38,795 nt of DNA from Spirochaetota bacterium (GTDB lineage: Bacteria > Spirochaetota > UBA4802 > JAFGDQ01): NCBI GenBank assembly GCA_034190085.1, contig JAXHTS010000048.1:1-38795 (forward strand), given 5' to 3'. Within the stretch, counting starts at the first letter, position 1. Every line of letters begins with the position of its first letter. Below the pieces are notes generated by a model that did no database searches, was not told the DNA's origin, and saw nothing but the letters and a program-made list of their open reading frames with translations. The translations under genes and the position numbers were made by a program. Positions 5,473-31,309 of this stretch are shown here, one piece after another.

Positions 5473-6568
5473 TTAAGCTTCCCATACAACCTTCCCATCT
5501 ATAATTGTCAAAAGGTTTTTAATGTTCTTTATCTCCTCTGGTTCCACTTGAGTTGGGTCATCGCTCAATAGCGCCATGTCAGCTAATTTCCCTGATGTGA
5601 TAGAACCTTTTCGATTCTCCTCAAATGATGCAAATGCAGGAAACAGACTATACATGCGAAGTGCATCAATAGTTGAAACAGATTCTTCTGGTGAAAAAGT
5701 AAGTGCAAATTGATCTTTTCTGGTAACAACGGTATAGATCCCAGTAAATGGATCGCTAGGAACCATAGGTGAATCTGAGCTGAGAACAGTCATCACACCA
5801 TGATTGCCAAAGGATTGTAAGGGATAAATCCATTTTAAATGCTCGGGGGGCATCCCCTTTCGATATCGATCTCCCATATGATAGAAGAAAGATGGTTGAG
5901 TCACTATAATTGTATTTAACAAACTCATCTTATGCATTAGATCTGGTGGACATATTGCTCAATGCTCGAATCGAGGTCGGCAGAATGGCTTGGGATCCCT
6001 CTTCGAGATATATTCCAATGATGCTATCGCCTTATCCAGGTTGTAGAGGTCGCTGACATGGAATGCAAGTTGGAAACCTGCCCTGTGTGCTCGGATTGCA
6101 TGAGCTAGTATTTCCTTCCCCCTTGGGTTGAGGATTCCCAGTGCTTTCATCAAGTGCAATTTTAGCAGGACCTATGCGTAGCTGATTATTCCCAACACCG
6201 CTATGCAGATCCATTGCATTAAATTCCTCTACAGCATTGCTGTTAACCATCATTGTGATACTGCGGAGTAATATCCTTGATTCCTTAAGTTTTTGATAGA
6301 ATCCCCAATTACCTAAGCCATTTGACCAGCTATCATCCTGCAGGGATGTAATGCCATGGGAGATGTAATACTGATTAGCTAGATTGATACCCTACTGAAG
6401 TTCTTCCTGATATATAGGTGGCCCCCTATACCTATCGAGTTCATCCCTGCTGCCAATAGCCAATAACCTGCTACCCTTGATAGCTACAATCTCAAGATTA
6501 GCCTGATCCTGATCAAGGGTTAGCAGCCTTACATTATGCAGAATTAAATTTGCATGGTTTTCTGACAT
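5473..6568 (-). pseudogene. Decayed amidohydrolase (YtcJ-like amidohydrolase family 3)
   Basis: Pieces of one amidohydrolase read right to left. The start at 6568 (MSENHANLILHNVRLLTLD) is a typical amidohydrolase N-terminus. It is followed by an in-frame TAG at 6392-6394, then a segment with GNNQLRIGPAKIALDEST. A frameshift near 6130-6150 leads into RGKEILAHAIRAHRAGFQLAFHV, an in-frame TGA follows at 5959-5961, and a C-terminal part ends in the usual SGKLADMALLSDDP and IDGKVVWEA. The metal-binding HxH segment and ~150-200 residues expected after the N-terminal strand pair are absent, so there is also an internal deletion near 6400. Intact relatives are about 520-570 residues; this locus spans only ~365 codons. 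At least two stops, one frameshift and one deletion make function very unlikely. Confidence 0.88.
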
Positions 6569-14109: not shown

Positions 14110-17100
14110 ATGAATAGTATGGATAATAATAATAAATATATTGTCTTACTCAACAGCTCATTAAAACAGCATATCCTAACACTATCAGAGAAGGGTAAAA
14201 AAAGATTAAGAGATAAGTTTGAATTTCTTGGGAATGGCCTTTGGGATGGTGGTGTCAGAGTAAAAAAGCTTAAGGGTTTATCAAACAATGTCATCTTTGA
14301 AGCAAGACTCGATAGGGGCGACAGAATACTCTTTACAGTGGGGGAGCATGATAAAAAGACAGCCATATACGTATGGGGAATAACCAAGCATGATGATATA
14401 AATAAAAATGCAAATAGAATAATACCGAGTAATGCACCATTTCTGAATTTTGAGCCGGAAATAACAGAAGATTATAGCGATATAATAATTGATGACCTGT
14501 CACCTGAATATTTTACCCAGGAGAATGTAGAGGAAAAATATAACTATGAATGCGGACCACAGAAGTGGCTGCTTTTCAGGGAGGAGGAGTGGATTAGAAT
14601 TCTTCAACATAATGGCAAGAGTGATTTTGAGATATACCTATTATTAACGGCTGATCAGGCGAATATACTTCAAGAAGAGCCACCTCTCCTCATATCAGGA
14701 ACCGCAGGTAGCGGGAAAACGATTATCTCAATCTATTATCTCTTAAAAAACAATTTTTTTAATAAAAAGAGGGTGTATTTAACCTATAACGAACACCTGA
14801 AGAGATTCTCCCAGGGTCTTTATAAGGGACTAATAACTAAAACAGGGATAGAGGATCACGATAATCAACCAGAATTTTATACATTCAGAGAACTGCTTTT
14901 TGAGATATGCAACAGATACAACATTGTATATGATTCTCAAAAAGAGGTATCCCTCATAGAGTTTGAAAGAATATTCAAGAATCATCATCTTTATTCAAAA
15001 TATGATAGTGAGCTTGTATGGGAGGAGATCAGGTCAATAATCAAGGGTGCCAAACCCCCCATAAGCCTTGGGGAGTACAAAAGACTCATGACGAGATATT
15101 CCAATAGCAAATTATCGCAAACTGATATCAATCGATTGAGGGATTATATAATTAACCTGCAGAGATTTGAGTTTTGCGATAAGATTGAGAGGATTATAAA
15201 AGGAAAAACAGATTATAACAGTCTGGATTCATTTACAATCAGCCTAATGGATAGGGCAATCCTCTACTCTGTTCCTGTCAGGCTTGTGTTATCCGAAATC
15301 CAAAGGATCATAAACAAGAAGGCGAATAGTTTTGCCAGCCCCTTGTTGACATTTAATGAGTACATATCACTTGGCAAGAAGAGAGCGCCCAACTTTATAT
15401 ATGACAGAGGCGACATCTACACCATTGCTAAGTATTATCAGGATAAGCTTTGTGATGAAGGATTATGGGATGAGATTGATCTCTGTAAAGATGTTATAGG
15501 ACTGATTGATCGCTATCCGAATAGCTTCAATTATGATCTGGTCGTTTGTGATGAGGCGCAGGATTTTACGGATATTCAAACCTTCCTGATCTTCAGGCTT
15601 GCAAAGGACTGTAACAATATTGTCTTTGCCGGAGATCCAAAGCAGATAATAAATCCAAGCGGTTTCAGATGGGAAGAGGTGAAGTCCAGATTTTATGAAA
15701 GGGGCGTACATGCGCCAGATGTGGTTAATCTAAGACTCAACTTTCGAAGTGTGGGCAATATCATTAGACTCTCAAACTCTCTACTAGATCTTAAACAGAG
15801 GCTAATAGGCATCAGCAGTAATGAGTTAAAGGAAGATTGGAAATTTAACGGCATCCCTCCTCTTCTGATTTATAACATCAATGAAAATGAAATCATAGCG
15901 AAGATTAAAATCACAATTGCAGGTATGATTATACTAGTACGGGATGAAATGGAACAAAATAGATTAAAAGAGATTATAGGAACAGAGCTCATTTTTACTA
16001 TCAATGAGGCAAAGGGACTCGAATTCGATTCTGTATTTATTTGGAAATTCATAAGTGACAAAAAATCCCTTGATATTTGGCGCAAGATCAAAAATGAACA
16101 CCTTGTAGATAATATTCATTATCCTCACATTAGACATGAGATTAACATGTTCTATGTTGCCATTACCAGGGCACGAAATAACCTTATATTCTATGATGGG
16201 GAGCATCCCTCTGATATATGGGATATGGAGGATTTAAAAGATCATGTTTATTTTACTTCTGATAAGGATATATTGGAGGGACTATGGCAGAAGATATCAA
16301 CACCTGAGGAATGGGATGAACAGGGAGATTATTTCTTTGATCGTAAGTATTATCCAGCGGCAATGGAATGCTATAGGAACTCGGGCAACACCAGTAAGGC
16401 GGAGGTTGCCGAGGCCTATAACTGGCAACAGAATAATCAACTTGAAAAGGCCGCAGTACTTTTTGAGAGGAATGGCTTAATAAAAAGGGCGGCGGAAAAT
16501 TATGAAAATATACAGGATTATAAGAGGGCTCTTGATCTATGGGAGAGGTTAAATGACAGGAAGAGAGCTGAGGTTTGTGTTATTAGATTATTTGAGGCGA
16601 ATGGCGAATTCGATATGGCTGCGGAGGGTTGGAAGAAGCTTAAAAATTATCCTTTAGCTATATCTAATTGGGAAAAGGCTAATAATTATCGGGCAATTGC
16701 AGGGTATTATCATTCCATTAAGAACTACAATGACGCCTCGCGCTATTATGAGTTGGATAGAGATTATGTTGAATCAGCGGAGTGTTTTAAAAAGCTTAAG
16801 AAATATGGCAAAGCGGCTGAACAATATTTCAAAGGAGAGAAGTATAACGATGCTCTAACTCTCTTTAAAAAGCTAAAGAATAAGGATGGAATGATCCAGT
16901 GCTACCTAAAACTGGAGGATTATTACAATATAGCATTGATCTATGAAAAAAATCAGGATTATGATAATGCCATAGGAGCGTTCGAGAAATTTATTAAACT
17001 TTCAACGGACAATATAGAACTGATAAAAGCCGAAGCTCAACTACACGAAACCGGAAGATCCATAATAAAGTCAGCCATTCGATACAGTGCCTTAAAGGAC

Positions 17101-18393
17101 TATAAAAAATCAGCGCAAATTTTTTACGAAAAAGAAGGTTACATAAAGGCCCTCGAACAATTTGAAATAATAGATAACAAGGAAATGATAGCTGAGTGTT
17201 ATTTCAAAATCAATGATTACTACAATTATGCCACGATTATTGAAGATACTGAAATTAAGAATCGATTTACTCTATCAGAGAAGGGATTCTATGATTATAT
17301 TTATGAGGACAATAACTATAACAGAAAAAAGGCGGATATTCTCTTTAAAGAGGCAAGATTATTTCAAAGGAAGGGATTTTACAAAAAGGCCCTGTCAAGG
17401 TATAAGGCAATCAATTATCCTGAGATGATATATGAGTCTTATCTAAACATTGATGAAGATGATGATGCTATTAAATATTTCTTTGAGGAGAATCAATTAG
17501 AGTATCTGGAAAAATTTATTAAGGGAAAAGAGAAGCTTCGGATATCAGGGGAGTTGTTAAAATATATTTATAAAAAAATGAAAACACATCGAAGATGGTA
17601 TCATGATATTGAAAAGCAAAGGATTGACCTTTCCGCACAAATCTTTTTAAAAGCCCTTGAACAGGAAAATGATGAAGAGGCCACTTCTATCGCTTATAAA
17701 TATATAGATAAGTACTATGATGCATCAAGTATGCCGATTGAAGAGATGCCAAGCTCCATGATAAACCTTGTAATAGAACTCAAGCACTATAATATGGTCT
17801 TTGCCTTTGCTAGGGATGTCGCATATTATAAAACTGGAATCTCTAATGATATCCCTAAGGATATGGAGGCAATGCTCAATCTCATTAAACATAGAGGCGA
17901 GGAGGGTGATGATTATCTATTGGCTTGCTATTATTATGTTTATGATAAAGATAAATTTGATGAGCTTATAGTAGGATTTGACATAAATCAATACAATTCA
18001 GACCTATTTTCATTCAGCGGGCATTACCAGAGGGCTGTTGATTATTTTATAGGTTTAGGTGAGATTAACAAGGCTTTAAAGATATGCAAATCCAATCGTC
18101 AATACCAGCAGATGGCAGCAATCTACGAAAACACAGGAGATCTCCTACAGGCTGGGAAGTGCTATTTTGATGCAAATAATTTTAATGCTGCTATTAGATG
18201 TTATATGGATTCAGGGGCTTATGATAAAGCGGCTCGAGTTTGTGAGAAGATTATGGATTATCAAAAGGCTATGGAGTTTTGGGATAGATGTAACAGACCT
18301 AAGGAGATAGATAGGATAAAGAAGATGTTACATAGGAATGGCCTAAACGAAACCGCCAATGAAGATTTAAAAGCACAGCTGGAATTATTTTAA
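14110..18393 (+). CDS. Giant fusion: RelE/ParE-like domain + UvrD/Rep-type SF1 helicase + TPR-like solenoid
   Basis: This is a single intact 1427-residue frame. Residues ~15-100 resemble RelE/ParE-type toxins: a helix pair with LRDKFEFLG, a strand pair RILFTVGEH, and a final strand AIYVWGITKHDD. A UvrD-type helicase follows: a Q-motif region at LLTADQANIL (~178-187), Walker A GTAGSGKT at 197-204, Walker B DEAQD at 481-485, GDPKQI, LNFRS, EAKGLEFDSVF and VAITRAR at 683-689. From ~730 to ~1400 the protein consists of degenerate 30-40-residue helical hairpins of TPR character (A...Y...G....A...Y.). All ATPase residues seem present. The role is unknown: RNA or DNA unwinding directed by the solenoid scaffold, with the RelE-like part as a nucleic-acid-binding or nuclease element, is inference. 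No good ribosome binding site precedes ATG 14110; M4 is an alternative. Confidence 0.85.
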   Translation: MNSMDNNNKYIVLLNSSLKQHILTLSEKGKKRLRDKFEFLGNGLWDGGVRVKKLKGLSNNVIFEARLDRGDRILFTVGEHDKKTAIYVWGITKHDDINKNANRIIPSNAPFLNFEPEITEDYSDIIIDDLSPEYFTQENVEEKYNYECGPQKWLLFREEEWIRILQHNGKSDFEIYLLLTADQANILQEEPPLLISGTAGSGKTIISIYYLLKNNFFNKKRVYLTYNEHLKRFSQGLYKGLITKTGIEDHDNQPEFYTFRELLFEICNRYNIVYDSQKEVSLIEFERIFKNHHLYSKYDSELVWEEIRSIIKGAKPPISLGEYKRLMTRYSNSKLSQTDINRLRDYIINLQRFEFCDKIERIIKGKTDYNSLDSFTISLMDRAILYSVPVRLVLSEIQRIINKKANSFASPLLTFNEYISLGKKRAPNFIYDRGDIYTIAKYYQDKLCDEGLWDEIDLCKDVIGLIDRYPNSFNYDLVVCDEAQDFTDIQTFLIFRLAKDCNNIVFAGDPKQIINPSGFRWEEVKSRFYERGVHAPDVVNLRLNFRSVGNIIRLSNSLLDLKQRLIGISSNELKEDWKFNGIPPLLIYNINENEIIAKIKITIAGMIILVRDEMEQNRLKEIIGTELIFTINEAKGLEFDSVFIWKFISDKKSLDIWRKIKNEHLVDNIHYPHIRHEINMFYVAITRARNNLIFYDGEHPSDIWDMEDLKDHVYFTSDKDILEGLWQKISTPEEWDEQGDYFFDRKYYPAAMECYRNSGNTSKAEVAEAYNWQQNNQLEKAAVLFERNGLIKRAAENYENIQDYKRALDLWERLNDRKRAEVCVIRLFEANGEFDMAAEGWKKLKNYPLAISNWEKANNYRAIAGYYHSIKNYNDASRYYELDRDYVESAECFKKLKKYGKAAEQYFKGEKYNDALTLFKKLKNKDGMIQCYLKLEDYYNIALIYEKNQDYDNAIGAFEKFIKLSTDNIELIKAEAQLHETGRSIIKSAIRYSALKDYKKSAQIFYEKEGYIKALEQFEIIDNKEMIAECYFKINDYYNYATIIEDTEIKNRFTLSEKGFYDYIYEDNNYNRKKADILFKEARLFQRKGFYKKALSRYKAINYPEMIYESYLNIDEDDDAIKYFFEENQLEYLEKFIKGKEKLRISGELLKYIYKKMKTHRRWYHDIEKQRIDLSAQIFLKALEQENDEEATSIAYKYIDKYYDASSMPIEEMPSSMINLVIELKHYNMVFAFARDVAYYKTGISNDIPKDMEAMLNLIKHRGEEGDDYLLACYYYVYDKDKFDELIVGFDINQYNSDLFSFSGHYQRAVDYFIGLGEINKALKICKSNRQYQQMAAIYENTGDLLQAGKCYFDANNFNAAIRCYMDSGAYDKAARVCEKIMDYQKAMEFWDRCNRPKEIDRIKKMLHRNGLNETANEDLKAQLELF

Positions 18394-22088: not shown

Positions 22089-22763
22089 ATGCTGAAGGTA
22101 AAACCACATCCCAACTATCCCCCTGAGGAGGGTAGATACATGCGCGGCAACGATGCCTCGCCCGTTGCGGTCATGATAATTTTGAATTCTGACGCTGACA
22201 AAATACCGCGCGAGATTGAGAGCCTCGTACGCACAGGCATTGAAAGCGGCGCTGCCCTTTCAGGAACGGTGCAGACCGAGAATATCGGTTTTGAGAAGAT
22301 AGTCTGCAATATAATCGCAAATCCAAATATTCGGTATCTGATTCTCGGAGGACCGGAATCCGAAGGGCATCTAACCGGAGAGGCCATGAAGCTTTTATTT
22401 ATGAACGGGGTTGATGAAAAGAACAGGATAATCGACTCGGACTCCCCTCACCCCTTTATGTATAATATCTCAATAGAGAAGATTGAGCGTTTCAGGAAAC
22501 AATTGATGCTGATTGACCTTCAGTTTGAAGCTGATCCTGACGTGATAAGGAGAGCAGTATGGTCATGTTATCAGGAGGAGCCGGTGGAATTCAGGGGATA
22601 CACCCTGTACGACTGCGGCGCCTATCCCGAACCACCGATGAATGGGGAAATCACATGGAGGGTAACGCAGCCATGGGTTGGAGTTATTGACGATAAGGAG
22701 ATGGAGGCCGTTCAAAAGGCGAAGGAACTGATGGAACGTCTAAGGAAAAGGAACAAAGGGTAG
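22089..22763 (+). CDS. Stand-alone MtrA-like corrinoid protein (methyl-H4MPT:CoM methyltransferase subunit A family)
   Basis: The 224-residue protein follows the MtrA family pattern closely: SPVAVMIILNSD, SGAALSGTVQTENIGFEKI, NPNIRYLILGGPESEGHLTGEA and GVDEKNRIIDSDSPHPFMYNI. In methanogens MtrA carries the cobamide that accepts the methyl group in the Na+-pumping MtrA-H complex. H94, in the EGHLTGEA loop, is my candidate for the lower axial cobalt ligand. The C-terminal membrane helix of archaeal MtrA is missing and the protein ends in a charged helix, so it should be soluble. Its codons are visibly richer in GCG/CGC/GGC than those of the flanking genes, suggesting separate acquisition. It sits between arsenic genes; no MtrH, other methyltransferase or corrinoid activator is in the window. 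Confidence 0.85.
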   Translation: MLKVKPHPNYPPEEGRYMRGNDASPVAVMIILNSDADKIPREIESLVRTGIESGAALSGTVQTENIGFEKIVCNIIANPNIRYLILGGPESEGHLTGEAMKLLFMNGVDEKNRIIDSDSPHPFMYNISIEKIERFRKQLMLIDLQFEADPDVIRRAVWSCYQEEPVEFRGYTLYDCGAYPEPPMNGEITWRVTQPWVGVIDDKEMEAVQKAKELMERLRKRNKG

Positions 22764-25673: not shown

Positions 25674-27500
25674 ATGATATACAATAAAAGGATTAAGTCT
25701 CTTATTATACGGTCTCTCTTTGTTGTGCTAATCTATCTTCTCCTTCTTCCACAAATGAGCAATGCTCTTGAATTGTATACGATTGTTGAGAAGAATAAGA
25801 TATTAAATTCAGGTTTGATTATTGATGTAGAGGAGAATAAGGCAACCCTTCTGCTTCTTGATGGCACACTAAAAGGAGTTCTATTAAATGATATCAGCGC
25901 AATACTCATATACAATATAATAGAAAATCCATTGTACGGATTGCAGATAAATCCCGAACTCTCAAAGTTTTTACGAAAAGTCTATATTGAAGATGTAGAT
26001 GAGCCCTCCCTTACAGCATTGCCCGTTCAATTGATCAATGAAATGGTCATATTTTATGATATTTCAGGAAAGATTCATGTGCATAGACTCTCGAATATTT
26101 ATAAACTAAGGTCTTATAAATATAGAGAAGATAAATACATAAGCTTTAATAATGCGCCCATTAACCTGAATATCGGCGATATTCTGTTAGACGGAAACAT
26201 AGATACGGAATTTAAAGGGGAAGAGATATATCCCACAAAGACATTGTCAGATACAATTAAAATTTATGATTTTTTTTCAACCCTTAGAGATGGATTTCTG
26301 AAGATAAATAACTATAAGGAAAGAACCTATGTATATGCAAAACCCTTTCTCTTCGATCAATCGCTAAAACTCGGAAATGTCTTTCTTTTTTGGGGAAATA
26401 AACTAATAGGCAGAGATCTATTTAACACCTATTTCCAATGGTCAACCGGGACTTCCCATGGGTTTCAAACTCAGACAACTATCGGAGGGGCGCTGTGTGA
26501 ATGGCTCCCCAGGCTTAGCCCTCTCTGGGCCCTTCAGTCTGAAATCAAGTCTCATTTTTTTAATTCAACCTTTGTTGGCAACATAAATCCAAAGGCATTG
26601 CCTGCTGGAAGCAGATACTATACTAGCGAAGATGATTTTGATGATATGAATTTTGGTATGATGAATGATGAGGATAATGCATTTGACAAGGCTGATAATA
26701 TCTTTGGCTCAGATGTAGAGGAAAAATTGATAGTGGATGATGATCCCTATATTACTTCTCATATCAACTACCTTCTATCAATAGGTGTGGATTACAAATG
26801 CTATTCGCTTTCAGTGGGAATGTTTAATCCTATTTATGCTATTCGAGTAAATAATCATTTTCGCGAGATCATGGCCTCAAAAAACTCTCCATTTTTTAAG
26901 TTCATCTATTTTAAGGGAGATATTCGTCTAAAATCCATGTTCTCTGTTTCCAGATATCATCATAAGGATGATGATGTAATAGATAATGTGTATGCGCGCT
27001 ATTTGGAAAAAAAAATATATGAATATGTCGAGACAGAGTATGGTTGGATATTTCCCTTTCCCATGCTTAGAAAGGATATCTATGGGTATGCTGAATACAA
27101 CAGTGACAGTGAATCGCCTTTATTATCCTACAGATTTAAATCATATTTTGCTAGATTTGGGATTTCCTATGATCTGAATCCGGATATTCAATTAGGATTG
27201 GATGGAGTAGTAATCGCAGGAAAGTATACCGAAACCTTTAATGCAATAGATTTTTCTTCTGATATTAGTGAGATTATTCTTCAGAGCGAATCTATCACCT
27301 ATGATCTGTATTCAAACACCATAAATTTTAAACAGTATAATACTGGGATATACATTTACCAAAATTTCAGCGATTACGTCGCTATAAAGTTAATCCTAAA
27401 TATATATATCAGTCAATATAAATATAATATGTTTAATATCAGTGATAATGATACATCGATTAAGCTGCAATCCGGAGGATCCTTTGAGCTCATTTTTTAG
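25674..27500 (+). CDS. Exported protein of unknown function, probable outer-membrane beta-barrel
   Basis: The N-terminal signal peptide ends near SNALEL (about residue 31). Residues ~35-75 form a small beta-rich module (SGLIIDVEENKATLLLLDGT) that resembles an SH3-like or LSm-like fold and seems to recur around residues 125-150. An acidic stretch rich in Asp and Glu spans ~317-360. The remainder alternates polar and aromatic-hydrophobic residues (for example YKCYSLSVGMFNP, YAEYNSD, GIYIYQNF), and the protein ends in Phe (SFELIF), the classical last residue of outer-membrane barrels. I recognise no family. The next gene is a paralogue in the same operon. It may form an envelope complex with its neighbour. 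Confidence 0.7.
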   Translation: MIYNKRIKSLIIRSLFVVLIYLLLLPQMSNALELYTIVEKNKILNSGLIIDVEENKATLLLLDGTLKGVLLNDISAILIYNIIENPLYGLQINPELSKFLRKVYIEDVDEPSLTALPVQLINEMVIFYDISGKIHVHRLSNIYKLRSYKYREDKYISFNNAPINLNIGDILLDGNIDTEFKGEEIYPTKTLSDTIKIYDFFSTLRDGFLKINNYKERTYVYAKPFLFDQSLKLGNVFLFWGNKLIGRDLFNTYFQWSTGTSHGFQTQTTIGGALCEWLPRLSPLWALQSEIKSHFFNSTFVGNINPKALPAGSRYYTSEDDFDDMNFGMMNDEDNAFDKADNIFGSDVEEKLIVDDDPYITSHINYLLSIGVDYKCYSLSVGMFNPIYAIRVNNHFREIMASKNSPFFKFIYFKGDIRLKSMFSVSRYHHKDDDVIDNVYARYLEKKIYEYVETEYGWIFPFPMLRKDIYGYAEYNSDSESPLLSYRFKSYFARFGISYDLNPDIQLGLDGVVIAGKYTETFNAIDFSSDISEIILQSESITYDLYSNTINFKQYNTGIYIYQNFSDYVAIKLILNIYISQYKYNMFNISDNDTSIKLQSGGSFELIF

Positions 27501-29217
27501 TAGATATATTATCCTCCTCATCCTTTTTCTTTTAATGTTTTCTGATAATATCTGGTCAATAAATATACATGGTCTTTATACATCCGCCTGCAAACGAGAG
27601 TTAGGTGTAATTGTGGATGTAAATGATTCTAAGGTACAGCTATTTACATTAACAGGAAAAATAATTGAAGTGCCTCGATATGAGATAATTTTTATGACAT
27701 ACTATTCTATTCATAACTTCCCTCCTGTAACGCTCAAAGAAGCAGACAGGGTTGATATGGTAAAGGTGCGAACATTACAAAATAATAAGATCGTGGATCT
27801 TGTTTCAGGATGGCCATTCGATTACTCAGAAGATAATATCTCATTTTTAACCCAGGAAGGGCGCGAGGTGGTAATCGCAAGGGAAAGCATATGGGAGATT
27901 GAAATTGCTAAAACACCAAGGTCAATCAAATTTGTCAATGAACAGAAGTATAACCTAAAATTTATTCACCCCTATCCCTTTAGAAACTGTGCTTATCAAC
28001 AGAGAGCCGAGGACAATTCCGCGGAAAAACTATATAATGTATTCCCGCAACAGTTCCTAAGCGATCCTGTGATAATGAAAAAAGAACTGGACAGACTAAT
28101 GTCTGGCCGAAAGCGCATAGATAAATATAATAGCTGGCAGCAATTCTATTCAATCCCTCAGGTTTATACTAATACCACATCCTTAGGGTATTGGTTTTCC
28201 ATTGGTTCAAGATACGGCGCGTCCAAATCGCGAAACAACAACTTGGCTCCTATTTTACAAAATGAATATTCCTCAGGTCCCTTTGGCTACCAGCACCTTT
28301 TGCTAACAGGAAGCGCTCCCATCCCCTATTCGGTCCATGAAGAGCCGCAGACACAGGTATATTACAGATTGAAGGCTGATTATATACACATAGCGGCAAT
28401 GTTTGATGCCAGTCAATACATATTGCCTTCAGATAAGTATGATTGGGGGAAAGATGATCTCTCCTCCTACGATGATCGATTAAATCAGAGTTATTCCGGG
28501 GAAGTGGGGATCGATTATTGGCATCTGACCCTACAAGCATATTTCAGCATTCTTCCCTTTGGAATACGCTGCGGTGATAACACATATTTTGGTGAGGCAA
28601 ATTCATTGAGAATTGGTACAACCTTTCAAAATCATCTTATAAAAATTGAGTTTCAGTATGAACTGCCGACAGGCAACGATGAGGAAACCGAGACTATTAA
28701 CCTCAATACGGGTTTTGCAGGAGCGAAGAGGGATAATGAATTCAGGATCAAAGCCCATAGATTAAATCTTGAGACCTCAATATCCGCTAAAACAACATTA
28801 TGTTATAGTGTAATATATCGAACCCTGAAATACAATAATTCAGGCGATACCTCTTCCCCAAGGACTATATATGAGCTATACAGCGACAGTTTAGAAGACT
28901 TACAGCAAATGTATGAGGATAATCCCTATGGTATACCAGAATATTATTTAGAACAGTTATCATTAGCAGAAGAGATGACAAGCAATTATGAAGAGGCTCT
29001 GCCTGTGTTTAACTCTATGATCTTCAGTTACAAGAGCATGTCAATAACAAATGCGGTCTATCTGCTCTATTCATTAAACCAAAAATATACCCTCGGATGC
29101 TTTGCATCCATTGAATATCACAGCTTGAAATACAGAAACAATTATATATCAAATTTTAAAAAAGACACATGCCATTTCTATCCAAAATTTGGAATTCATG
29201 CCTCATTATCTTTCTAA
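27484..29217 (+). CDS. Exported protein, paralogue of the preceding gene, probable outer-membrane beta-barrel
   Basis: I place the start at a TTG (27484-27486), six bases after GGAGG at 27474-27478. That gives a clean signal peptide (SSFFSRYIILLILFLLMFSDNIWS). An ATG at 27442 would add 14 polar residues in front of it. The start lies inside the last codons of the upstream gene, a 17-base overlap indicating translational coupling. The first ~70 mature residues (GVIVDVNDSKVQLFTLTGKI, then EIIFMTYYSIHNFP) parallel those of the upstream protein (GLIIDVEENKATLLLLDGTL, then AILIYNIIENP). The rest is barrel-like and ends HASLSF, again with terminal Phe. The final product is ~577 residues with no assignable function. 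Confidence 0.7.
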   Translation: MSSFFSRYIILLILFLLMFSDNIWSINIHGLYTSACKRELGVIVDVNDSKVQLFTLTGKIIEVPRYEIIFMTYYSIHNFPPVTLKEADRVDMVKVRTLQNNKIVDLVSGWPFDYSEDNISFLTQEGREVVIARESIWEIEIAKTPRSIKFVNEQKYNLKFIHPYPFRNCAYQQRAEDNSAEKLYNVFPQQFLSDPVIMKKELDRLMSGRKRIDKYNSWQQFYSIPQVYTNTTSLGYWFSIGSRYGASKSRNNNLAPILQNEYSSGPFGYQHLLLTGSAPIPYSVHEEPQTQVYYRLKADYIHIAAMFDASQYILPSDKYDWGKDDLSSYDDRLNQSYSGEVGIDYWHLTLQAYFSILPFGIRCGDNTYFGEANSLRIGTTFQNHLIKIEFQYELPTGNDEETETINLNTGFAGAKRDNEFRIKAHRLNLETSISAKTTLCYSVIYRTLKYNNSGDTSSPRTIYELYSDSLEDLQQMYEDNPYGIPEYYLEQLSLAEEMTSNYEEALPVFNSMIFSYKSMSITNAVYLLYSLNQKYTLGCFASIEYHSLKYRNNYISNFKKDTCHFYPKFGIHASLSF

Positions 29218-29800: not shown

Positions 29801-31309
29801 TCAATCGCAGGAACAAGAGACGTCTATGCTGACCTCCACCCCATTGTATATAAACTTACATATATCCGTACAGTCGGACTCATCCAGATTATTGTCAGTC
29901 AGCCTAAGCGCTGTCAAATTAGAGAGAACAGAAATGGAAGAGATATCACTTATTTGATTATCTTCAAGGTTCAGATATGTAAGATGAATTAATCCTGAAA
30001 GGGAGGAGATATCGATTATATCATTACTTCTTAGATAAAGTTGTGTAAGATTAGTTAAAGCTGATAAGAAAGAAATGTCGCTTATCTGATTATCATTAAG
30101 TCTGAGATTTGAAAGATTGGTTAACACTGATAGGGAAGAAAAATCAATTATCTCATTATCTCCAAGGCTAAGATATGTAAGATTAGTTAAAACTAAAAGG
30201 GAAGAGATATCGCTTATCTCATTATATCCAAGGCTAAGATATGTAAGATTAGTAAGCGTTGATAGGGGTGAGATATCATTTATCTTATTACTTCCAAGAT
30301 TAAGATCTGTAAGATTAGTTAAAACTGAAAGGGAAGAGATATCGCTTATCTCATTATCTCCAAGGTTAAGAAATGTAAGATTAGTTAAAACTGATAAAGG
30401 TGAGATATCTATTATATCATTAGCGTTAAGGAAAAGCTCCTTAAGATTAGTAAGAACTGATATAGGAGAGATATCGCTTATCTCATTATCCCAAAGGTTA
30501 AGATCTGTAAGATTAGTAAGTGTTGATAGGGGTGAGATATCATTTATCTTATTACTTCCAAGATCAAGATATGTAAGATCAGTAAGCGTTGATAGAGGTG
30601 AGATATCATTTATCTCACTATAATTAAGGTTAAGATATGTCAGGTCAGTAAGGACATAGAGGGGAAATATATTCTTAACTTTGTTGAAACAGTTGTCACT
30701 CATGTTAAGGGTCTCCAGACAGGTTAGCCATGAAAGAGGCGCCATATAGCTTATCATGTTGGACTTCAAGTTAAGGTTAGTCAGAGCAATGCAATACTCT
30801 AGTCCACTTAAATCATTTATCCTTAATAAAGATAAGTCTAAATCTGTGGGGCTGTTTATAAGATCACTATTGAGAATATCGCCTGTGGGCCTGCCAATAG
30901 CCTCCCTAACCTTCAGCTCAATATTTGCATCCGCAAATACTACAACCTCCTCTTCGTCAATATCGCCATCGCAATCATTGTCCTTGCCGTCGCAAGCCTC
31001 TGATGCTGTGGGATGGATAGCTGGATCACTCTCATCACAATCCTCCTCCTCTCGATTGCAAAAATTATCGCCAACTCCATATCCGTCTTCATCCTTATCC
31101 TGGCATGTGTCACAATCAGACCAGTGATCAGCATGATCGTCGTTGCAGTCAGGGCCAGGGAGACAATTTTCCCCATAACCATCACCGTCATTATCAATGC
31201 AGAGGTTGGGAGGAATTACGATTTTATCATCATCGCTGCACGCGAGAAAGAACATAACACATACTGTAAGAGCGAAACAAAAATACAAGGTTCTCCTAAG
31301 CATTCCCAT
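29801..31309 (-). CDS. Lipoprotein with MopE/thrombospondin-3-like acidic motifs and leucine-rich repeats
   Basis: The 502-residue protein has a lipobox FLAC (Cys24). Residues 37-118 carry Asp/Cys-rich repeats (DNDGDGYGENC, DKDEDGYGVGDNFC, EACDGKDNDCDGDIDEE) of the MopE/thrombospondin type 3 kind, which bind calcium or other metals. About 14 internalin-like 22-residue leucine-rich repeats follow (~160-480; consensus LTNLTYLNLGDNEISDISPLSV). A Cys-rich C-terminal cap (SCSCD) closes the protein. The surface-anchored architecture suggests adhesion or protein binding. Successive LRR units are nearly identical at DNA level, indicating recent internal duplication. Near the likely start there is a run of G rather than a normal ribosome binding site. 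It stands alone between the repeat array and the tRNA gene. Confidence 0.88.
   Translation of the reverse strand: MGMLRRTLYFCFALTVCVMFFLACSDDDKIVIPPNLCIDNDGDGYGENCLPGPDCNDDHADHWSDCDTCQDKDEDGYGVGDNFCNREEEDCDESDPAIHPTASEACDGKDNDCDGDIDEEEVVVFADANIELKVREAIGRPTGDILNSDLINSPTDLDLSLLRINDLSGLEYCIALTNLNLKSNMISYMAPLSWLTCLETLNMSDNCFNKVKNIFPLYVLTDLTYLNLNYSEINDISPLSTLTDLTYLDLGSNKINDISPLSTLTNLTDLNLWDNEISDISPISVLTNLKELFLNANDIIDISPLSVLTNLTFLNLGDNEISDISSLSVLTNLTDLNLGSNKINDISPLSTLTNLTYLSLGYNEISDISSLLVLTNLTYLSLGDNEIIDFSSLSVLTNLSNLRLNDNQISDISFLSALTNLTQLYLRSNDIIDISSLSGLIHLTYLNLEDNQISDISSISVLSNLTALRLTDNNLDESDCTDICKFIYNGVEVSIDVSCSCD

Follow-up and report, generated by a model that had tools for sequence, protein, structure and literature searches.

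A RelE/YoeB-like domain, an SF1A motor and a helical-repeat solenoid in one antitoxin-free bacterial protein

What might a bacterium do with a single protein that joins a toxin-like domain to a helicase motor and a long helical arm, with no antitoxin gene beside it? The question is raised by a gene at 14110-18393 (+) of a 38,795-nucleotide stretch (hereafter, the window; contig JAXHTS010000048.1, assembly GCA_034190085.1) from a metagenome-assembled genome (MAG) of a Spirochaetota bacterium. An earlier note, made from the sequence alone, had described an intact gene of 1427 codons that unites a toxin fold, a UvrD-type motor and a helical tail and is not preceded by an antitoxin gene. This description is borne out: the frame encodes 1427 amino acids without internal stops, Pfam matches and AlphaFold2 models recover the three parts, and the gene upstream, at a distance of 252 bp, encodes an FGGY sugar kinase. 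The product is a genuine, complete and previously undescribed three-part protein, encoded by a gene present in a single copy in this MAG. The architecture is firm and is not a product of chance, because over 40 loci from many phyla share the same full-length layout. With regard to function, we consider a self-contained, horizontally transferred abortive-infection or stress factor to be the most likely reading, although we put it forward only tentatively.

For the N-terminal domain, the first line of evidence is its predicted structure. An AlphaFold2 run on a 50-sequence alignment, from which two plasmid rows were left out, yielded a model of residues 1-768 (predicted local distance difference test score (pLDDT) 88.9, predicted template modeling score 0.89) with a strand at 11-15, helices at 16-24 and 27-41, and strands at 44-54, 61-66, 71-80 and 83-93. 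Residues 11-93 are thus predicted to follow the beta-alpha-alpha-beta-beta-beta-beta order of RelE, the topology of the BECR fold. Because the motor dominates Foldseek searches with this model, these do not separately test the RelE domain. The second line of evidence comes from sequence profiles. No RelE-family Pfam match is obtained with the window protein alone, and among 54 homologous N-terminal domains scanned singly against Pfam, YoeB_toxin was matched by 10 (best 3e-5), HigB-like_toxin by 11, Gp49 by 9 and ParE_like by 2. With hhalign, the domain aligned over 72 columns to a YoeB profile built from YoeB toxins of Spirochaetota genomes (P 6.5e-4, compared with 6e-3 for the best control). 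There was no match to the ParE profile (P 0.17), and a ParE identity was rejected on this result; weak PDB matches to a restriction-endonuclease GTPase subunit (6p0f and 6ut5; E 0.04-0.1) extended over only part of the domain. Predicted topology and profile similarity, the latter with modest scores, together support the assignment to the RelE/ParE superfamily made in the earlier note.

The motor is recognized by Pfam as UvrD-helicase at 184-514 (3e-11) and UvrD_C at 625-694 (2.9e-8), with a further weak match to SLFN-g3_helicase (2e-6). Motifs I to VI are intact, and the residues checked are invariant, single exceptions apart, in the 72 full-length proteins on which all residue counts given here are based (Table 1). 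The neighbors of the motor in PDB profile comparisons are PcrA, UvrD, GajB, FBH1, Rep and HelD, and HelD, UvrD, PcrA and Rep take the top Foldseek ranks. The protein shares all core motifs with UvrD, PcrA, Rep and HelD, its best fold and profile neighbors, but differs from them in the N-terminal toxin fold, in the C-terminal solenoid and in the apparent lack of a canonical 2B domain. The absence of this domain is suggested by the short distance of about 82 residues between NFR (544-546) and FTIxEAKGLEFD (FTINEAKGLEFD, 629-640) and by the UvrD_C match, which begins only at profile position 286.

The C-terminal tail is entirely helical in the AlphaFold2 model of residues 704-1427 (pLDDT 90.0), which consists mainly of 10-residue helices joined by 3-residue loops, so that along much of its length the predicted unit is shorter than a canonical tetratricopeptide repeat (TPR). 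Pfam detects TPR_14 at 938-978 (1.1e-5), and Foldseek places the tail next to the solenoids of IFT-A, Ctr9, Ski3 and clathrin, all with low TM-scores. We compared divergence of the three parts across 731 protein pairs sorted into distance bins. Conservation of the RelE domain and the motor was 0.92/0.90, 0.84/0.79, 0.73/0.70, 0.62/0.58 and 0.54/0.50, and the mean tail identity in the same bins was 0.84, 0.68, 0.50, 0.34 and 0.29; in every bin, the RelE domain is conserved as strongly as the motor, and the tail diverges much faster. Length varies as well: tails of 285 and 995 residues stand behind motors that are 66% identical (L071 and L081). The repeats are TPRs in most members, with long canonical runs in some cyanobacterial ones (L081, L069), and a Polymorphobacter plasmid relative carries ankyrin repeats in their place, behind an N-terminal segment that is RelE-like by eye, without a Pfam match. 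Fast divergence and change of length are as expected for a ligand-recognizing arm, and to this extent the earlier suggestion that the solenoid is a sensor holds up.

A profile search of contigs from a set with one genome per species recovered 110 relatives, whereas a search of the same contigs with the single sequence found none. The relatives come from Spirochaetota, Neomarinimicrobiota (Fidelibacterota), Desulfobacterota, Acidobacteriota, Aminicenantes, KSB1, Calditrichota, Ignavibacteriota, Bacteroidota, Myxococcota, Cyanobacteriota and one Heimdallarchaeota MAG, so that the gene is scattered over more than ten bacterial phyla. A homolog is carried by G046, a genome of the same phylum as the window. 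Of 345 Spirochaetota genomes, 7 gave a match, and one of these, a Spirochaetes MAG (GWB1_60_80), retains only fragments with stops (L060; G332:C43:69-1987). The gene was not found in the nearest relatives or in the other searched members of the order to which the window belongs, and the one weak match, in G029, belongs to an ordinary UvrD-type frame. The tree places members from Neomarinimicrobiota, Desulfobacterota and Pseudomonadota within a 15-row, mainly Spirochaetota clade (support 99), and the homologs in Crinalium, Euhalothece, Paraclostridium and Polymorphobacter are plasmid-borne. Plasmids of Shigella/E. coli and Piscirickettsia also carry relatives of the motor. This sporadic, cross-phylum pattern looks like horizontal transfer, and confinement of the homologs to housekeeping contexts, which the earlier note had named as evidence that would speak against its proposal, is not what we see. 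The base composition of the gene gives no sign of recent transfer (GC content 0.361, that of the window 0.368). The FGGY kinase is kept in relatives with rearranged surroundings, so that no clean empty site could be demonstrated in the relatives searched, among which the downstream SpoU methylase gene was not found.

The very patchy distribution and the fast-evolving tail, both unusual for a housekeeping role, weigh on an alternative in which the protein serves ribosome and mRNA quality control as an accessory no-go-decay factor: the motor would pull on the mRNA of a stalled ribosome, the RelE-like domain would dock in the A site or cut there, and partners would be recruited by the solenoid. 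The ribosomal A site is where RelE/YoeB domains act, the weak structural neighbors of the solenoid include Ski3 of the Ski complex, and the SF1 RNA helicases Upf1, IGHMBP2 and Setx occur among the weaker matches of the motor; the top motor matches, however, are the DNA- or RNA polymerase-linked UvrD, PcrA, Rep and HelD, and we regard this explanation as unlikely.

Whether the RelE-like domain could be a catalyst depends on its conserved charged residues. In YoeB, E46 is the general base and H83 the acid, and R59 and R65 contact mRNA or the transition state (PMC3814384). In the family described here, the constellation K52, K/R53, E64, R66, R72, H94 and D95 is intact in 68/72 proteins, and R66, R72, H94 and D95 are lost jointly only in L044 and L046, sister Aminicenantes proteins, a pattern of conservation and loss that suits a functional site. 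In the comparison with the YoeB site proposed in the earlier note, the topology agrees with that of YoeB and other RelE-superfamily toxins, the profile match is colinear, and R66, R72 and H94 fall at the positions of R59, R65 and H83 (the last placed by eye, outside the aligned hhalign columns); Glu46, however, is replaced by Lys52, so the domain does not belong to YoeB proper. On the next strand, the near-invariant E64, another departure from these toxins along with the large fused motor and the missing antitoxin gene, might act as a substitute general base.

The replaced general base, the two members that have lost the other catalytic-like residues and still retain the whole protein, and the kinship with PcrA, UvrD and HelD in fold and profile would also fit a UvrD/HelD-type accessory helicase for replication-transcription conflicts or DNA repair, with the RelE-like domain as a non-catalytic module for binding nucleic acid or protein. 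We give this explanation little credence, as a binding module alone would not be expected to hold the E/R/R/H constellation in nearly all members across phyla, and as the gene occurs sporadically and survives only as fragments in one genome.

Among 776 neighboring open reading frames (ORFs) at the homolog loci, no partner recurs except by close relatedness or as a common protein type, and no conserved partner or antitoxin gene of the kind found in type II toxin-antitoxin systems was detected at these loci. The genome of the window has no YoeB- or ParE-family match of its own at E 1e-8. At five Acidobacteriota/Aminicenantes loci, an upstream gene coding for 208-214 amino acids, without a known Pfam family, is coupled to the RelE-helicase gene through an ATGA overlap at the start of the latter; no other locus has this gene, and this applies also to the sisters L044/L046 with the lost RelE-like residues. 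This gene could be a lineage-specific regulator, but as the five loci represent one clade, it is only a hint. The same coupled gene could be taken as a sign of an addiction-like toxin with an internal antitoxin, that is, a factor for maintenance of, or competition among, plasmids and other mobile elements, and some contexts agree with this: the plasmid homologs of Crinalium and Paraclostridium adjoin parA-type genes, that of Euhalothece lies near parA/parB, and another homolog adjoins a Tn3 transposase. Given that the surroundings of most members are ordinary chromosomal ones in which mobile genes do not recur and that there is no general antitoxin partner, such a role seems highly improbable.

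Returning to an abortive-infection or stress factor, we propose, by analogy, a mechanism in which a nuclease is gated by a helicase. The SF1A translocase would detect nucleic acid in an aberrant state, a protein partner would be recognized by the variable solenoid, and the RelE/YoeB-like domain would be the output. The polypeptide would most likely hold itself in an inactive state, to be relieved by engagement of the motor with single-stranded nucleic acid, by ligand binding to the solenoid, or by both; the released RelE-like domain would then cut or block mRNA, probably on the ribosome, and arrest translation. Here we infer RNase activity, a ribosomal target, internal gating, recognition of a trigger by the tail, and phage or stress as that trigger. 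In Hachiman HamAB, a sensor helicase likewise constrains an effector nuclease (PMC12278908); the likeness is one of logic only, as HamAB consists of two genes with a DNA-cutting effector, and we claim no homology between it and the single-gene protein. Schlafen group 3 proteins (SLFN11) similarly carry an RNase domain N-terminal to an SF1 helicase, and the motor has the weak Pfam match given above, but the RNase fold is unrelated, and there is no repeat arm. Gabija GajB has a UvrD-like helicase and is the sole PADLOC match of the protein (1e-10), with profile matches to GajB structures; however, the match is restricted to the helicase motifs, and there is no GajA gene at the locus, which is flanked by the FGGY kinase and the SpoU methylase, or next to the homologs.

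Several observations weigh against a role in immunity or stress response. The lysine at the position of the YoeB general base means that catalysis may be lost or rewired, and in the absence of an antitoxin, an active RNase would need internal control. The PADLOC 2.0 match is limited to the generic helicase part of GajB, and no defence model is matched over its full length, as would be the case for a known anti-phage system. Contrary to the defence-island context envisaged in the earlier note, PADLOC matches among 117 near neighbors (within 2 positions) comprise four PDC-S01 and a few singletons, and in this small, generic test the near genes are no richer in matches than 117 distal ones (at least 4 positions away). 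No relative was found in phage genomes, and the three matches on viral contigs are confined to short helicase stretches. Finally, MAG binning errors or contamination could inflate the transfer signal.

Two further observations concern the surroundings of homologs. Strong matches to PsyrT/PsyrA and DpdF (2e-277, 1e-78, 5e-115) lie at least four genes from a RelE-helicase gene. The Euhalothece plasmid homolog has two NERD-UvrD proteins as neighbors (L006:12882-14771 and L006:17626-19536), followed by cas1-cas2 (L006:20478-21743), such that the region contains a second kind of fusion between a nuclease-like domain and a UvrD motor.

Table 1. Features of the RelE-motor-solenoid gene and of the gene coupled to some of its homologs (residue numbers refer to the window protein; positions are those of the window or, in the last row, of the homolog loci)
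Feature	Position	Strand	Evidence
Complete gene, 1427 aa: RelE-like domain, SF1A motor, helical-repeat solenoid	14110..18393	+	single copy in genome
RelE/YoeB-like (BECR-fold) domain, residues 9-116	14134..14457	+	AlphaFold2 topology; Pfam matches of homologs; YoeB profile alignment
K52-K53 on strand 2, K52 aligned with YoeB general base E46	14263..14268	+	K52 71/72; K53 = K or R 72/72
E64-x-R66 on strand 3, R66 aligned with YoeB R59	14299..14307	+	E64 71/72; R66 70/72
R72 on strand 4, aligned with YoeB R65	14323..14325	+	70/72
H94-D95 past last strand	14389..14394	+	H94 70/72; D95 69/72
SF1A (UvrD/PcrA/HelD-like) motor, residues 177-700, apparently without a canonical 2B domain	14638..16209	+	Pfam; PDB profile matches; AlphaFold2; Foldseek
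Motif I / Walker A GTAGSGKT (197-204)	14698..14721	+	K203 72/72; T204 71/72
Motif II DEAQD (481-485)	15550..15564	+	D481, E482, Q484, D485 72/72
Motif III GDPKQ (508-512)	15631..15645	+	D509, Q512 72/72
Motif IV NFR (544-546)	15739..15747	+	N544, R546 72/72
Motif V FTINEAKGLEFD (629-640)	15994..16029	+	K635, G636, E638 72/72
Motif VI YVAITR (682-687)	16153..16170	+	V683, T686, R687 72/72
Fast-diverging solenoid, residues 720-1427, short helix pairs	16267..18390	+	AlphaFold2; Foldseek; divergence
Family signature W735...G739...A751-x-E753-C754, first repeat beside motor	16312..16371	+	W735, A751 72/72; E753, C754 70/72
ATGA-coupled upstream gene	L042:2141-2767, L043:9363-9995, L053:9354-9998, L058:9360-9998, L061:9351-9995		

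Elsewhere in the window, a 154-amino-acid frame at 5473-5937 (-) matches an amidohydrolase over its final quarter only (profile positions 346-471 of 472) and is likely a gene remnant. An MtrA-like methyltransferase subunit of the PRK00964 subfamily, here in a Spirochaetota genome, is encoded at 22089-22763 (+), with an ArsR regulator and an ArsP-type permease upstream of it. Two long neighboring frames at 25674-29217 (+), of 608 and 591 codons and slightly overlapping, have no Pfam match, and a leucine-rich-repeat protein with a MopE-type metal-binding motif lies at 29801-31309 (-).

The eukaryotic protein TRANK1 combines TPR, ankyrin and helicase parts, and the loose parallel with it drawn in the earlier note is slightly strengthened by the ankyrin-bearing Polymorphobacter relative. 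In other bacteria, RelE-UvrD fusions that lack the long tail of repeats are listed as hypothetical proteins, so that databases may have recorded the pairing of RelE with UvrD earlier. We found no description of the RelE-motor-solenoid architecture in the literature searched, and a recent survey of RelE/ParE multidomain toxins (Gerdes 2025) excluded antitoxin-less multidomain BECR proteins and does not mention helicases (PMC11980606). It is possible, if rather doubtful, that the family constitutes a new class of single-polypeptide, antitoxin-free bacterial immune or stress sensors, in which a ribosome-directed RelE/YoeB-like RNase is gated by its own SF1A motor and an exchangeable TPR or ankyrin arm recognizes the trigger, a prokaryotic counterpart of SLFN11- and TRANK1-type architectures. 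Members are present in the cultured bacteria Acanthopleuribacter, Sulfidibacter, Nostoc and Crinalium, in which direct tests are possible. If the proposed reading is true, a RelE/YoeB toxin-fold domain would be carried safely without an antitoxin, controlled by a motor and a sensor arm within the same protein, which would be a one-gene addition to the nuclease-helicase class.

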